From a virus: 34,818 nt of DNA. The stretch lies in IMG/VR virus record IMGVR_UViG_3300033064_002385, positions 1 through 34,818 of that record; one strand, 5' to 3'. Shown in pieces: positions 21,207-30,862 of the stretch. The first letter of the stretch is position 1, and the number at the start of each line of letters is the position of its first letter. A program made the translations under genes and the position numbers. The notes below the pieces were generated by a model that was not told the DNA's origin, searched no databases, and saw nothing but the letters and a program-made list of their open reading frames with translations.

Positions 21207-21214
21207 TATTTATA
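21207..21214 (-). promoter_or_regulatory. Late promoter TATAAATA for gp20
   Basis: Exact TATAAATA on the minus strand, 24 nt before the gp20 ATG. The gp19 stop codon TAA is part of it (ATA-TAA-ATA), so four bases of the element serve both genes. Confidence 0.8.
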
Positions 21215-23852: not shown

Positions 23853-23860
23853 TATTTATA
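23853..23860 (-). promoter_or_regulatory. Late promoter TATAAATA for gp18-gp19
   Basis: Exact TATAAATA on the minus strand, 39 nt before the gp18 ATG and just after the stop of the terminase C-half, followed by a strong AGAGGAG ribosome site. Confidence 0.85.
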
Positions 23861-23864
23861 GAAA

Positions 23865-25025
23865 TCAATAGTTCCACATGTATGAAACTGACTCTTGTGT
23901 GTCCCCATACCAGACACTACCATCATCTACAAAACCCTCATCCCCTTCCAGCCCAGTTGTTATAAAACCAAACGGTGCCATGTCTTGTTCAATCTGATTT
24001 TTTTGTTCTTCGTAGATTCTTTTACGAACATCATTGTCCGTCATTTCTTTAAAATAATCTTGAACTGCCAACCAAGCAAAGATAACTAAGCACATCACAA
24101 GGTCATCATGGAAACCATCGTCAGCCTCAAAGGATTGCTTTTTCTGAATGAACGTGGTAAGCTCAGAGATGATTTCGTAATCCCGGAACATCAACTTGTC
24201 ATCCTCAATTAGTTGCTTCAAGTTTTGACAACCAACCTTTTTCACGGTGATTGACATCTTGATACCGAGTTGAGTTTTGTTGCCAGAGAATCCTTGTCCG
24301 ACAATCTGCCCAGCACGACCTCTCATTGAGCACATTAATACGTTAGGATACTCTAAGTCATAGTTCAGAATAGAAGCTACTTGATCACCAACATCGTTTA
24401 CTTCACATAGTACGTAAGCATTATTGTATGCTCGGGCAACGTCGTTAATCACATTGGGAAATAGCATAGGTTTAATTTCGTTGTTTCTATACTTTGCTAC
24501 TATCTTGTATGGAAGTGTGGTAATATCAAATACAATAAATGCCGAGTAGTCACCACCTATGCCTCTTGATACGTCGGCTGTAATGATGTATTCTGATTTT
24601 GAACTTGGGGTTTCATAAACATCAAGACCTTTGTTGGAACTGATGGGAGTATCAAATGCTAACGTTCTTAATTTAGAAGCAGCAATAAGAGTATCAACCG
24701 ATCCTAAGAATTCACAATTATGTGATATAATATTGTTAGCATAATAAAGATTTCCATCCTCTACATCTATAGGATCATAAAGCCAAATACCTTCTTCTAC
24801 AATTTCATTATAAACAATTTTTTTATTATTTAAAATATCACCAAGTTTTAAATTTTCTGCTGTGATCTTTAATTCGCCAAAAGGATGGTTACACGAACAT
24901 TTTATTTCCGTATCATCATCAAATATAATATGATGGTAAAATGGTTTATAAACTTTTTGTATGCCTGTAAAATTTACAAACCCAGTAGGAGATAAAATTT
25001 TATAACCGGAATTTAATTTAAACAT
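23865..25025 (-). CDS. 17: Terminase large subunit gp17, C-terminal half with C-intein
   Basis: This 386-residue protein is a fusion of a C-intein and the nuclease half of the packaging terminase. Residues 1-103 are intein (described separately), ending SHN before Cys104. Residues 104-386 start CEFLGSVDTLIAASKL and form the RNase H-like nuclease: D151 in IITADVSRG, E208 in LCEVND, and H306-D307-D308 in GFHDDLVM, matching the T4 gp17 catalytic acids. There is no Walker motif; that lies on the separate N-half gene (25630-26511). The ATG overlaps the end of the endonuclease gene by 8 nt and lacks a clear Shine-Dalgarno, so translation may be coupled. Activity should require trans-splicing or assembly with the N-half. 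Confidence 0.95.
   Translation of the reverse strand: MFKLNSGYKILSPTGFVNFTGIQKVYKPFYHHIIFDDDTEIKCSCNHPFGELKITAENLKLGDILNNKKIVYNEIVEEGIWLYDPIDVEDGNLYYANNIISHNCEFLGSVDTLIAASKLRTLAFDTPISSNKGLDVYETPSSKSEYIITADVSRGIGGDYSAFIVFDITTLPYKIVAKYRNNEIKPMLFPNVINDVARAYNNAYVLCEVNDVGDQVASILNYDLEYPNVLMCSMRGRAGQIVGQGFSGNKTQLGIKMSITVKKVGCQNLKQLIEDDKLMFRDYEIISELTTFIQKKQSFEADDGFHDDLVMCLVIFAWLAVQDYFKEMTDNDVRKRIYEEQKNQIEQDMAPFGFITTGLEGDEGFVDDGSVWYGDTQESVSYMWNY
24717..25025 (-). other. C-terminal split-intein fragment (103 residues)
   Basis: This is the coding segment for the C-intein. Landmarks are KILSPTGFVNF at the start, a HHIIFDDDTEIK strand pair, the block B motif CNHPFG (45-50), a LKLGDIL strand, block F-like LYDPIDVE and block G ending NNIISHN followed by Cys+1. 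It has no endonuclease domain. Block B is normally in the N-terminal piece, so the break lies unusually early in the intein. It closely resembles what I recall of the AceL-TerL split intein from Antarctic lake metagenomes. Confidence 0.92.
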
Positions 25026-25587
25026 TTGCCCAAGTTTTTTTTTCTATAATTCTTCTGATGTTTTCTTTTGTTGTTTTATATTCTTCAGCATACTTAATAG
25101 AAAATGCTTGGGCATATGACATATATTTACCATTTTTCATTTTTCGTCCAACTCCATCAATATCAATTTTTTGTTCATACAAAGTTCTGAGATTTTTTAC
25201 TATTTGTTCATTTAATTTTGTAGGTTTCCAAATTTTACCTTTTCTTAGATTACTAAAATGCGCAATTGTTTCTGTACTAAAACATCCCGGTTTATTTTTA
25301 TTCCAAGGAATATAACCTTTATTCACTCCACCAATGCCTTCTCTGCTATAATCTTCAAATCCTTCTCCACCGGGAGATTTATTCCATCCATTATAGTAAG
25401 TATCGTATTCAGATATGAATTCTATCTCTTTTAATTTAGCAATTTCTCTATCTTCTGTAAAAAATATAATTTCAAATTTATGTTTATCTTTTGTATTTTT
25501 ATGAGCACATTTTCTTTTAGTTGGATTAATTGTCTGACCAACATATTTAATCACATCATCTTGATTTAGAGCGTAAATATAATACAT
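25018..25587 (-). CDS. GIY-YIG homing endonuclease between the terminase halves
   Basis: This free-standing GIY-YIG nuclease is encoded between the N- and C-halves of terminase. The catalytic domain is visible in residues 1-75: YYIYAL and KYVGQT (GIY and YIG equivalents), Arg25 in PTKRKCAH, Glu54/56 in LKEIEFI and Asn69 in GWNKSPGG. Residues 88-120 (NKGYIPWNK and FSNLRKGKIW) look like a NUMOD3 DNA-binding motif. The C-terminus is helical, with an ENIRRIIEKKTW stretch that may also bind DNA. It has an exact late promoter only 11 nt upstream, no Shine-Dalgarno, and overlaps the terminase C-half by 8 nt. It probably spreads the split-intein locus by cutting intein-free gp17 alleles; this is inference. 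Confidence 0.92.
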   Translation of the reverse strand: MYYIYALNQDDVIKYVGQTINPTKRKCAHKNTKDKHKFEIIFFTEDREIAKLKEIEFISEYDTYYNGWNKSPGGEGFEDYSREGIGGVNKGYIPWNKNKPGCFSTETIAHFSNLRKGKIWKPTKLNEQIVKNLRTLYEQKIDIDGVGRKMKNGKYMSYAQAFSIKYAEEYKTTKENIRRIIEKKTWANV

Positions 25588-25598
25588 TGTTTTATTTT

Positions 25599-25606
25599 TA
25601 TTTATA
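25599..25606 (-). promoter_or_regulatory. Late promoter TATAAATA for the endonuclease and terminase C-half
   Basis: Exact TATAAATA on the minus strand, 11 nt before the endonuclease ATG, in the 42-bp gap after the terminase N-half. With T4-like initiation about 6 nt downstream, the leader would be only about 5 nt. It would also transcribe the terminase C-half separately from the N-half. Confidence 0.72.
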
Positions 25607-25629
25607 TCCCAAAAAATTTACACTCATTA

Positions 25630-26511
25630 TTATATTGTATTGTAAAGTTCTTTTAAAGTAATATTTTTTTCTATTCCATTTTTTAATATAGTAATACTAG
25701 TATCTCCACCCAAACACTCAAATTCCTGCGTGAATTGTCGTTGAGAAGTATTCTTGATTGTTTCTTCTTTCCACCTAACATCACGACCAGGAACTTCTGA
25801 CCAATGAACCTCAGTCCAGATGTAATTGTTTCTTTGATTTTGAGCATCCACCCACAACTTATAGAAGTGGTTCATACCATAGGGAGTAGAAATAATAATA
25901 ACTTTAGTTTTAGTACCAGATGAAATAGTTGGATATACTGATGAAAAGAAATCTTCAGCAATGTGATTTGGAACGAAAGCAAATTCGTCCAAGAAAATAA
26001 TGTTAAATGACATTCCCCGTACAGCAGATGCTGAGGTAGATGCCGCCATAATCTTAGAACCATTCTCTAGTTCCATAGAACCTTTGTTCCATGAGAGAAC
26101 ACCTTGCTGTAACCACTTAGGAAGATTCTCGTATGCTGTCTGTAATCTACCTAGCAGGTCACGAGCAGTGGCTGCTTTGTTTGCTAGGATACCAATGTTG
26201 GAGCTACCATTAAACAGAGCATAGTGAAGAAGATACGAAACCACAACTGTAGATTTGCCTGTCTGTCTTGGCAGTTTAGCAATGTTAAATCTATTTTCGT
26301 GAAATTTTTTGACGAGTTCTTTTTGGAAATCATACATCCTAAAAGGAATCAATCCCTCATCAACGGACACAATCTTGACATAGTTTACAGCAAAGTATAC
26401 GGGATCTTCCCTACACTTAATGTATTCGGCAATTTGTTTTTTAGTCCAGTTGTGAGGAACGTTCGCTTTTTTAAGAAGCGGATTACCCAAATAAATTTGA
26501 TCAGTACTCAT
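25630..26511 (-). CDS. 17: Terminase large subunit gp17, N-terminal ATPase half with N-intein
   Basis: This 293-residue protein is the ATPase half of the DNA-packaging motor. It has Walker A PRQTGKST (81-88), Walker B IIFLDEFA (171-178), and coupling motif IISTPYGMNHFY (206-217). Residues 1-265 end at RQFTQEFE, the point where T4 gp17 continues into its nuclease domain. Residues 266-293 are a 28-residue N-intein beginning CLGGDTSITI (block A), and the frame then stops. The missing nuclease half is on the gene at 23865-25025. Joined, the exteins would give about 548 residues, normal for a cyanophage terminase. It overlaps the upstream 78-residue gene by 11 nt. Confidence 0.96.
   Translation of the reverse strand: MSTDQIYLGNPLLKKANVPHNWTKKQIAEYIKCREDPVYFAVNYVKIVSVDEGLIPFRMYDFQKELVKKFHENRFNIAKLPRQTGKSTVVVSYLLHYALFNGSSNIGILANKAATARDLLGRLQTAYENLPKWLQQGVLSWNKGSMELENGSKIMAASTSASAVRGMSFNIIFLDEFAFVPNHIAEDFFSSVYPTISSGTKTKVIIISTPYGMNHFYKLWVDAQNQRNNYIWTEVHWSEVPGRDVRWKEETIKNTSQRQFTQEFECLGGDTSITILKNGIEKNITLKELYNTI
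25633..25716 (-). other. N-terminal split-intein fragment (28 residues)
   Basis: This is the coding segment for the N-intein. It starts with the nucleophile Cys1 in CLGGDTSITILKNG, a block A match with the usual aspartate and threonine and a following hairpin glycine, then continues NITLKELYNTI to a TAA stop. Only block A is present. It ends without an endonuclease linker or zipper domain. Confidence 0.93.
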
Positions 26512-28606: not shown

Positions 28607-29484
28607 CAGAAACTATCTCCAAAATTACCATACTCACCAAATGGATTCTTTTCAGTAAAATCAAGAATATCATCTGCTTCGTCTTGAATGTATTTATTTT
28701 GATCGTAATCAGTATTAGGATCTTCTTGAGTATTAAACGATTCAACCTCCCACTCTGCATCAGATTCTGATCCTGTTAAAATCTCTTCTTCAACAAATGT
28801 ACCTGTTCTTGTAATTACAGTAAGAGTTCTTGTGGTCGGATTCCATTTAGTTACCTTTGCGGTAACACCAGAAATACTTCCTGTAACTGTTTCTCCAACT
28901 TCATATGCTATAGTACCACTGCCATTTAGCATGACAACATCAATAGCAGCAGTAAGAATATTTTCAATTAGATCAATGTCAGCAATGCCAGTGTCAATAG
29001 ATTCATTACCCATTTCATATATTTCAGCAGTGATCTGATAAAACTGTAGTTTACCAAACTGGTGAAATACTGCTTCTACTTCTACAAACTTAATTTCGTA
29101 AAGATCTTTAGTGAGTGGAAAGAATAATAAATCTCCTTCCAACGGTCTGTTAATACTCTTATATTCATTAGCAGTTGCTTCTTGAATCCATCTTCTTTGT
29201 GATACAATAAATTTGATTTCGTCTGTTACCTTGAGACCAAACTTACTAATAAATTCTGATTGACCAAATCCTTCTACGTTTTGAAGATACATTTCAATTT
29301 GAAATTGGTCTTCAAATTTTGAATAGATGATATCATCTAAAGTATTGTCGTTGAGTAAAGTTCTTGGTAGATAATAAATATCTGTTCCAAACAGTTTAAT
29401 CTGTTCGTCAGCAAGATCCTGAACGAGATTTTGCTCGCCTGAGTATCCGCTATAGTAATCTGGAAAGTAAGGGCTGGTAGGCAT
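28606..29484 (-). CDS. 14: Neck protein gp14
   Basis: gp14 and gp13 form the neck between portal and tail. At 292 residues it is near T4 gp14 (256) plus an insertion. It begins MPTSPYFPDYYSGYSGEQNL and has the conserved EQIKLFGTDIYYLPRTLLND and FGLKVTDEIKFIVSQRRW segments. A middle Gly/Thr-rich section (GSGTIAYEVGETVTGSISGV) looks like a small beta-domain insertion. The C-terminus has an FTEKNPFGEYGNFGDSF ending typical of cyanophage gp14. The start overlaps the stop of the GIY-YIG gene as TAATG. Confidence 0.95.
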   Translation of the reverse strand: MPTSPYFPDYYSGYSGEQNLVQDLADEQIKLFGTDIYYLPRTLLNDNTLDDIIYSKFEDQFQIEMYLQNVEGFGQSEFISKFGLKVTDEIKFIVSQRRWIQEATANEYKSINRPLEGDLLFFPLTKDLYEIKFVEVEAVFHQFGKLQFYQITAEIYEMGNESIDTGIADIDLIENILTAAIDVVMLNGSGTIAYEVGETVTGSISGVTAKVTKWNPTTRTLTVITRTGTFVEEEILTGSESDAEWEVESFNTQEDPNTDYDQNKYIQDEADDILDFTEKNPFGEYGNFGDSF

Positions 29485-30026
29485 TATTTTACTCTTTTAA
29501 AATGATAACCTTTAGATGATTTTGCTTCTCCTCTTAAACATTTTGAAATTTGACTATGATCAGCACCTGTTACTATTGAAGCAGATTTAATTGATGGAAA
29601 TAATTGATTCAATTCAACCACAAATACAGGAATTGTTGGTAAATGATTCGTTCCTGCTTTCTTTTTAGTTGCTGATATTTTTTCTCCTCTGCGCTTTCGT
29701 TCTTCGTCCGATAAATTATTCCAAAAATTTTGAATACCTTTAATTCTATTTTTTTGACCTTTTTTTGCTATTGGCGGAGAATCTCCTCCATCAGTTTTAT
29801 TATGTAAAATACCACCAAATTCTTTTCTACCGTATTTTGCTATTAACTGTTTTTCTAATTCAAGAGCTTCTTCATTAGTTAAATTATTTTTTAATACAAC
29901 TCTTCTTTCTATTGGAGGCAAATTAACATTATGAACTGTTAAATGTATTCTTTTACCAGATCCTTTTCCAATATAATAAAAAGAGCCATCTTCTCTCAAA
30001 TAAGCGTAACAATAATACTTTTTCAT
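29484..30026 (-). CDS. GIY-YIG homing endonuclease between gp13 and gp14
   Basis: This free-standing endonuclease is inserted in the neck gene pair. Residues 1-85 are the GIY-YIG domain: KYYCYAYL and FYYIGKG, Arg in KRIHL, Glu in ALELEKQLIAKYG and Asn in LHNKTDGGDSP. A middle Lys/Arg-rich NUMOD3-like stretch follows (KGQKNRIKGIQNFWNN), then a C-terminal NUMOD1-like DNA-binding module (VFVVELNQLFPSIKSAS and QISKCLRG). I prefer the ATG at 30026 (MKKYY), which has AGGA 8 nt upstream, over one three codons earlier. It overlaps gp14 by one base, so neck-gene expression may be preserved by coupled translation. Confidence 0.92.
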   Translation of the reverse strand: MKKYYCYAYLREDGSFYYIGKGSGKRIHLTVHNVNLPPIERRVVLKNNLTNEEALELEKQLIAKYGRKEFGGILHNKTDGGDSPPIAKKGQKNRIKGIQNFWNNLSDEERKRRGEKISATKKKAGTNHLPTIPVFVVELNQLFPSIKSASIVTGADHSQISKCLRGEAKSSKGYHFKRVK

Positions 30027-30031
30027 TTTAA

Positions 30032-30862
30032 TCATCCTATAAGATCCATCGGCGGAAGAGAGTAATCTGTAAGCATTCTTGCTTCTAAATCTTTAACCTC
30101 TACATTGCCGTCCTCCCAGATTTGACGACCGTTTAATGTAATACCGCCTGGCAGTTGAACATTGTTATACTTAATAAGGTTCTGTCCCCACATACGCTTC
30201 ATGAGAGCAGTAGCGTAACGCTTCAAAAAACTATCATCATATACTTGAGACCATTCTTGTGGATCTAAAGCACGATAACAATCAATAACCAAATAGTTAC
30301 CCGCTTTGATTCTTTTTACATCAATATCAATATAAAGACGATCTTGCCTTCTGTTGTGGCGATACTCAACAAGAGCACCAGTATTAATTACCATGTCAAT
30401 GGTTTCAAAATACTGTTTAATCATATAATAATTTGCTAAATCAAAATGGCCAAACGTATAACCAGCAGAGAATGAAAAAATATCCATCAAGAAATACTGG
30501 TTACTAAAACCCCACATATCATTGCTAGCAAAATTAGAAGTTACTCCAAATACTTTTTGAATACCGATTACGTGATCAGGAACTTCAATAAAGTTTTTTC
30601 TGTTGGTCCATTCTGATCCATCTGGATCTGCTGTGCTGGTAAGTTCGTCAGTTTCATTAAAACGAATTACATCTTCTTCAGTAAATTCGTGCTTGAGATA
30701 CATTCTCTCAATACCATCAAAGTGATACTCTTGATAATACTGAACAGCAGTATCAATGATATCATCAACTTGATCGTCGTCAATGTTGATCTGAAGAACT
30801 GGGGCACCCAATTGGCGCTTGCAGTAATCAATAAGTTCTTGCCTGGTGGATGGCTTTGCCAT
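30032..30862 (-). CDS. 13: Neck protein gp13
   Basis: gp13 is the neck ring protein binding the portal. The 276 residues compare with 309 in T4. It begins MAKPSTRQELIDYCKRQLGA and has the conserved INIDDDQVDDIIDTAVQYYQ, EYHFDGIERMYLKHEFTEED, YRHNRRQDRLYIDIDVKRIK and LMKRMWGQNLIKYNNVQLPG segments of the family. It is the first gene of the neck-tail unit, driven by a late promoter inside the terminator hairpin just upstream (30875-30907). It overlaps the endonuclease upstream region through its stop codon. Confidence 0.95.
   Translation of the reverse strand: MAKPSTRQELIDYCKRQLGAPVLQINIDDDQVDDIIDTAVQYYQEYHFDGIERMYLKHEFTEEDVIRFNETDELTSTADPDGSEWTNRKNFIEVPDHVIGIQKVFGVTSNFASNDMWGFSNQYFLMDIFSFSAGYTFGHFDLANYYMIKQYFETIDMVINTGALVEYRHNRRQDRLYIDIDVKRIKAGNYLVIDCYRALDPQEWSQVYDDSFLKRYATALMKRMWGQNLIKYNNVQLPGGITLNGRQIWEDGNVEVKDLEARMLTDYSLPPMDLIG

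Follow-up and report, generated by a model that had tools for sequence, protein, structure and literature searches.

How does a T4-like phage come by an intact packaging motor when the gene for its large terminase subunit, gp17 (TerL), is broken in two? The question is raised by a marine virus record of 34,818 nucleotides (IMGVR_UViG_3300033064_002385), a fragment and not a complete genome, which was analysed over its whole length and is referred to here as the window. It carries genes of a T4-like phage of the Synechococcus type (gp43, clamp, clamp loader, UvsW, gp20, gp23, scaffold, protease, sheath, and neck genes), and its gp17 is encoded by two open reading frames (ORFs) with a break at QEFE|CEFLGS. 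The explanation which we favour, with a probability of about 0.88, is that a mobile cassette occupies the large terminase gene (terL) of this cyanophage, consisting of the two parts of a split intein and a predicted homing endonuclease gene between them; protein trans-splicing would then join the gp17 halves.

Organization of the broken gp17 gene

All features of the locus lie on the minus strand. The first ORF (25630..26511) specifies 293 residues, of which 265 belong to TerL and end with QEFE, followed by the intein sequence CLGGDTSITILKNGIEKNITLKELYNTI and a stop codon. Its gp17 part, the N-extein (25717..26511), contains the ATPase domain and is recognized by Pfam Terminase_6N (E value 6.1e-23), by phrog_5989 (6e-69), and by alignment with T4 gp17 (PDB 3ezk). 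The second ORF (23865..25025) specifies 386 residues, namely a C-terminal intein part of 103 residues and 283 residues of TerL starting with CEFLGS; this C-extein (23865..24716, stop codon included) contains the nuclease domain (Pfam Terminase_6C, 1.5e-13), and the break thus falls between the ATPase and the nuclease domain. The initial annotation had described an intein start after QEFE in the one half, an intein with HPF and a terminal SHN ahead of CEFLGS in the other, and a distribution of ATPase and nuclease over separate halves, all of which proved exact in coordinates and motifs or agreed with the domain matches. It had also anticipated a joined product of about 548 residues, and the predicted spliced protein of 548 residues aligns over its entire length with T4 gp17 (E 6e-103), the alignment being ungapped where the halves meet.

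The C-extein is 84–87% identical to gp17 of the cultured Synechococcus phages Sf-FR1, Syn1, and S-RIM44; matches to gp17 of cultured Synechococcus phages begin only at the C-extein, i.e. these are alleles without this intein. No second terL is present within the 34.8-kb record, and in a relative of 188 kb only the two terL halves were found. Given complete splicing residues (see below), halves that add up to one gp17, and no second terL in the record, the proposal by the initial annotation of a split gp17 in need of trans-splicing is still the best reading of the locus.

The split intein and its relatives

The N-terminal intein part (IntN, 28 residues) is located at 25633..25716 with its stop codon at 25630-25632, and the C-terminal part (IntC, 103 residues, with the motif NH(47)PF and the end ISHN) at 24717..25025. 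IntC matches CatC (PDB 6dsl_B) with an E value of 2.9e-41 over residues 26-129 of the joined query, and IntN together with its extein matches CatN (PDB 6dsl_A) with an E value of 0.0065 for this short peptide. The CatN match includes the EFE of the extein, as chain 6dsl_A opens with EFE ahead of residue 1 and the junction in the window is EFE|CEF. Cat is a consensus design based on the split inteins AceL-TerL and GOS-TerL (PMC11766414), and the atypical TerL split inteins are characterized by a short IntN, a split past the first helix, and an IntC of about 104 residues (PMC11766414, PMC13014065). Because of the matches to both CatC and CatN and the same EFE junction, the window intein is, as judged from its sequence, a member of the AceL/GOS/Cat TerL family at the same site.

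The residues for splicing are complete in the window (C1, NH at IntC 46-47, SHN, and C+1) and show no variation among the aligned relatives. The sequence specifies gp17 as two proteins, TerL-N-IntN and IntC-TerL-C, and we infer that these are trans-spliced: the IntN of 28 residues would dock on IntC, and class 1 splicing involving Cys1, the block-B His, the terminal Asn, and Cys+1 would join QEFE to CEFLGS and restore the 548-residue packaging motor. A structure model of the C-half was too poor for use (mean predicted local distance difference test score, pLDDT, 47.7).

Relatives were collected by scanning IMG/VR with alignments of IntC and of the endonuclease, from which the best 80 of 303 and the best 80 of 133 loci, respectively, were taken. 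Altogether 82 relatives were examined in addition to the window; 72 of them and the window, i.e. 73 loci, possess both intein halves, and the remaining relatives mostly end too near IntC for IntN to be visible. The split is at the same point in 73/73 loci, with an IntN of 28–37 and an IntC of 103 residues, C1, SHN, and C+1 are invariant in all of them, and none of the 73 has a contiguous intein. A chance similarity to inteins can be ruled out because of the CatC match and because 72 relatives and the window share the split and these residues. IntC and endonuclease are under purifying selection, with ratios of nonsynonymous to synonymous substitution rates (dN/dS) of 0.03–0.12 (e.g. the pairs L083/L084, L126/L150, and L099/L147).

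A second insertion at the Walker A motif of TerL-N, a large contiguous intein, was seen in L005 (203-1906), and in the records L086, L093, L110, and L147 the N-half match is interrupted at Walker A within a longer ORF. In these five loci, a single terminase would need both cis- and trans-splicing.

The endonuclease gene between the halves

The initial annotation described the split-intein halves correctly and overlooked a 189-residue ORF between them (25018..25587) and its promoter. We assign this ORF to a predicted free-standing homing endonuclease of the GIY-YIG type, with a putative cutting activity, on the basis of matches to phrog_314 (homing endonuclease, E 3.7e-13) and to the Pfam GIY-YIG family. 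In seven aligned relatives, the Tyr residues of both motifs, GIY and YIG, and the conserved Arg, Glu, and Asn residues do not vary. An endonuclease gene is located between IntN and IntC in 70/70 loci listed, three of which end at a contig edge before IntC, and no other home of this endonuclease subfamily was found among these 70 loci.

Fractured genes, reportedly described by Dassa et al. in 2009, are conserved genes interrupted by a split intein, the two halves being separated by a free-standing endonuclease gene. Since an endonuclease ORF lies between split-intein halves, the window locus is, judged by its layout, such a fractured gene, and the presence of a homing endonuclease would explain why gp17 is broken.

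Evidence for movement of the cassette

An empty allele is found in the related locus L003, where terL runs uninterrupted through QFTQEFECEFLGS / QFTQEFECEFLGSVDTLI; its DNA is about 82–85% identical to that of the window over the aligned stretches and 80–98% near the site. In a tree of C-exteins, the rows of which were picked by similarity searches with uneven sampling, the window is the sole split member of a strongly supported clade of empty alleles and sister to L003 (100/92). In 1091/1128 pairs from 48 distinct loci, the exteins exceed the cassette in synonymous differences. Fourteen pairs combine an extein difference of ≥0.4 with a cassette difference of ≤0.1 and none shows the reverse (cassette ≥0.4, exteins ≤0.1), and in close pairs the identity steps up at the ends of the cassette. 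The site of the cassette is therefore empty in the closest relatives, and the history of the cassette differs from that of the exteins.

Because the gp17 of the window groups with intein-free alleles and its intein most resembles the inteins of distant phages, we infer from tree and divergence together that IntN, endonuclease, and IntC move as a unit by homing. The endonuclease would cut intein-free terL alleles in mixed infections, and repair would copy the whole cassette into them.

A late promoter motif and a near copy of the insertion site

Upstream of the endonuclease gene, at 25599..25606, a T4-type late promoter motif (TATAAATA) is present, which recurs in 66 of the 67 endonuclease-bearing loci (those with an endonuclease-sized gap), usually 8–13 bases from the ATG start codon. 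It is also found before gp18 (23853-23860) and gp20 (21207-21214). With four occurrences in the window the motif is not more frequent than expected by chance, so that the argument for a promoter rests on position. Adjoining the motif on its upstream side, the empty terL site recurs as a near copy (25607..25626; TGAGTGTAAATTTTTTGGGA versus TGAGTGTGAATTCTTAGGAT), a candidate operator of the endonuclease gene. In its best stretch 15/18 positions agree, which was matched by 1/1500 shuffles, and with 15/20 it ranks first in the window when the C-extein itself is set aside, the runner-up reaching 14/20. When the family consensuses of site copy and empty site are compared, 19/21 positions agree (2/20,000 shuffles). 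The endonuclease gene ends in an overlap of 8 nucleotides with the start of IntC (25018..25025, AATGTTTAA), a pattern shared by 65 of the 67 endonuclease-bearing loci. As IntC starts inside the stop region of the endonuclease gene, translation of the C-half may be coupled to that of the endonuclease, and production of the C-half may thus be tied to the control of the endonuclease.

A precedent exists in I-TevI, the GIY-YIG enzyme of the T4 td intron: a sequence that agrees with the homing site at 15/20 positions overlaps its late promoter and has been proven to act as the operator of autorepression (PMC2988022). By analogy, the endonuclease of the window might bind the copy of its target beside its own late promoter and repress itself as I-TevI does, a step in which we place less confidence than in splicing and homing. 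In such a switch, the selfish element would set the timing and the dose of the terminase C-half, which begins downstream within the end of the endonuclease gene. We put this forward tentatively, at distinctly less than an even chance.

Close to an even chance must be given to the alternative that the site copy has no regulatory role and is a relic of the entry of the endonuclease into the intein or a shared flank of the promoter. The operator role rests on sequence likeness; in many loci the site copy supplies the stop codon of IntN, as an insertion scar would; and in three lineages (L083, L085, L088) the match is weaker, with 44–74 of 1500 shuffles equalling it, though it is strong in most relatives. 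A consistent RNA hairpin over the start of the endonuclease gene, which in I-TevI hides this start on early transcripts, was not found in 19 loci (z −4.9 to +1.1, mostly non-significant). What speaks for a function is that the stretch from copy to promoter is conserved, mostly with 1.2–2 bits per position and much above the sequence just upstream, even though the endonucleases concerned are just 51–55% identical to that of the window. The site copy is also lost or degraded in cassettes without an endonuclease, and the layout matches that of I-TevI. As far as checked, the combination of a promoter and an adjoining site copy in a split-intein cassette is new, provisionally so, as a promoter-side site copy is not mentioned in the literature searched, to which the original descriptions of fractured genes and of AceL-TerL did not belong.

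Gain, loss, and function of the split

The absence of the intein from the sister phages could also reflect loss, with no recent gain in the window. Tree parsimony by itself cannot fix the direction, and the selection of tree rows through similarity searches adds to this ambiguity. The window and L083, however, are 90% identical in IntC and 79% in the endonuclease but only 59% in the C-extein, so that transfer is needed and loss alone does not suffice. It is moreover unlikely that a cassette of three parts would be lost precisely, and copies without an endonuclease remain split. We therefore consider loss improbable and retain the acquisition of a mobile cassette by the window phage as the preferred reading.

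The cassettes without an endonuclease also bear on the function of the split. In L086, L107, L127, L145, and L159/L162 the intervening gene is gone and the remaining spacing is −8 to 44 bases; in L086 and L159/L162 just in-frame stop codons separate the halves. For the loss or breakage of the endonuclease the tree requires at least five separate events, and in all loci concerned the terminase gene is still split with intact splicing residues. That the split outlives the endonuclease in this form argues that trans-splicing works. L119 offers a snapshot of endonuclease decay: the endonuclease ORF is broken by an internal stop codon, and the promoter is still present, as are the site copy and the two parts of the intein.

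If, instead, the halves acted unspliced as two subunits, one ATPase and one nuclease, the intein parts would be decaying remnants, comparable to the situation in nrdA of phage Aeh1, which is broken by mobE. Genes broken by a homing endonuclease with no intein involved are known (PMC10448857, PMC2988022), and a break between the two domains would suit this view. It is nevertheless very improbable, because decay would preserve neither the splicing residues, which are invariant in 73 loci and persist in those with a missing or broken endonuclease, nor an IntC of exactly 103 residues in all of them, nor strong purifying selection. The preference of the initial annotation for a functional system over decay is supported by these residues and by the selection on IntC. 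A sequencing or assembly artefact, conceivable for a metagenomic contig, is a negligible prospect in view of the same layout in 73 loci from many samples and a split at the same residue in the cultured Vibrio phages VP-1, K469, and 1.244.A.

Three further points weigh against the reading of a trans-spliced, mobile cassette. The match to Pfam GIY-YIG (PF01541) is weak, with 16.4 bits and an E value of 0.012 versus a cut-off of 22.6 bits. The structure model of the endonuclease is poor (mean pLDDT 62.8), and a fold search with it gave no match. Finally, the search for terL covers the 34.8-kb fragment, and the phage's own genome could hold an intact terL elsewhere.

Split terminases in cultured phages and other features

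The Vibrio phages VP-1, K469, and 1.244.A (L233, L238, L239) combine the TerL split at the same residue with a related IntC, and their IntN and a GIY-YIG endonuclease form one in-frame ORF; the endonucleases of the window and of VP-1 are 30% identical (E 4e-12). In the annotation of these phages, the fused ORF is designated "terminase large subunit" or "coil-containing protein", and IntC-TerL-C "terminase-like" or "hypothetical protein". In Providencia phage PSTRCR_127 the split is one residue away, and both the TerL-N half and the intervening ORF are annotated as hypothetical. In the T4-like E. coli phage HY03 (L235, KR269718.1), a split intein divides TerL at Walker B, and the intervening ORF is a different one, by eye a Vsr-like nuclease; HY03 would be a convenient laboratory test case. 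Campylobacter phage CP81 (L237, L243; NC_042112.1) also has a TerL split at Walker B (IDE|C), with IntC-TerL-C at 101876-103204 on the minus strand and TerL-N at about 125.5 kb on the plus strand, the latter with an IntN of 30 residues (CVAGDTKITVRNKKTGVIEDITMEELYNRIG). The halves lie about 22 kb apart on opposite strands, an example from a cultured phage of a split intein with widely separated parts.

Two other ORFs of the window deserve mention. One among the neck genes (29484-30035) has an I-HmuI NUMOD-like domain (Pfam E 2.9e-7) and is likely another homing endonuclease gene. The gp43 ORF (10-1281) stops at 423 residues just past SLYPH, 9 bases from the end of the window, owing to a split gene, a frameshift, or an assembly edge.

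Significance and comparison with known systems

TerL split inteins and fractured genes are already known as kinds, and the window locus adds a member; the reading of a split intein in gp17 by the initial annotation holds, though not as a new kind. TerL split inteins are known as tools of protein engineering, and their natural life and spread have been little visible so far. The locus and its relatives display empty alleles, full cassettes, split cassettes without an endonuclease, and, in the Vibrio phages, fusions of endonuclease and IntN. These stages make the origin, spread, and irreversibility of split inteins testable, as well as the control of a selfish nuclease over an essential phage gene, and dozens of natural intein pairs are supplied for engineering.

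With AceL-TerL, GOS-TerL, and Cat, the window intein has in common the host gene terL, the EFE junction (seen in CatN), homologous sequence, and an early split, past the first helix, that leaves a short IntN, and its IntC of 103 residues corresponds to one of about 104 residues there. IntN comprises 28 residues in the window, 25 in AceL-TerL, and 37 in GOS-TerL, and residue 1 is Cys in the window and Ser in GOS-TerL. In the Vibrio phages VP-1, K469, and 1.244.A, the endonuclease is fused to IntN without a separate promoter between them, whereas it is a separate gene in the window. The resemblance to I-TevI consists in an endonuclease of the GIY-YIG type (in the window, a predicted one), a late promoter of its own (in the window, the motif only), and a sequence like the homing site at this promoter. 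The carrier of I-TevI, however, is a self-splicing RNA intron and that of the window a split intein, the site copy overlaps the promoter of I-TevI and abuts that of the window, and in the window half of an essential structural gene lies downstream. For the fractured gene AceL NrdHF, a GIY-YIG gene has been reported between the split-intein halves (PMC7891396). In the window as in AceL NrdHF and in fractured genes generally, a split intein interrupts a conserved gene and a free-standing endonuclease gene accompanies it, with an enzyme reported to be of the GIY-YIG type in AceL NrdHF and predicted to be so in the window. The window differs from them by terL as the host gene, the atypical early split, the predicted class 1 chemistry, and the near copy of the empty site at the endonuclease promoter.

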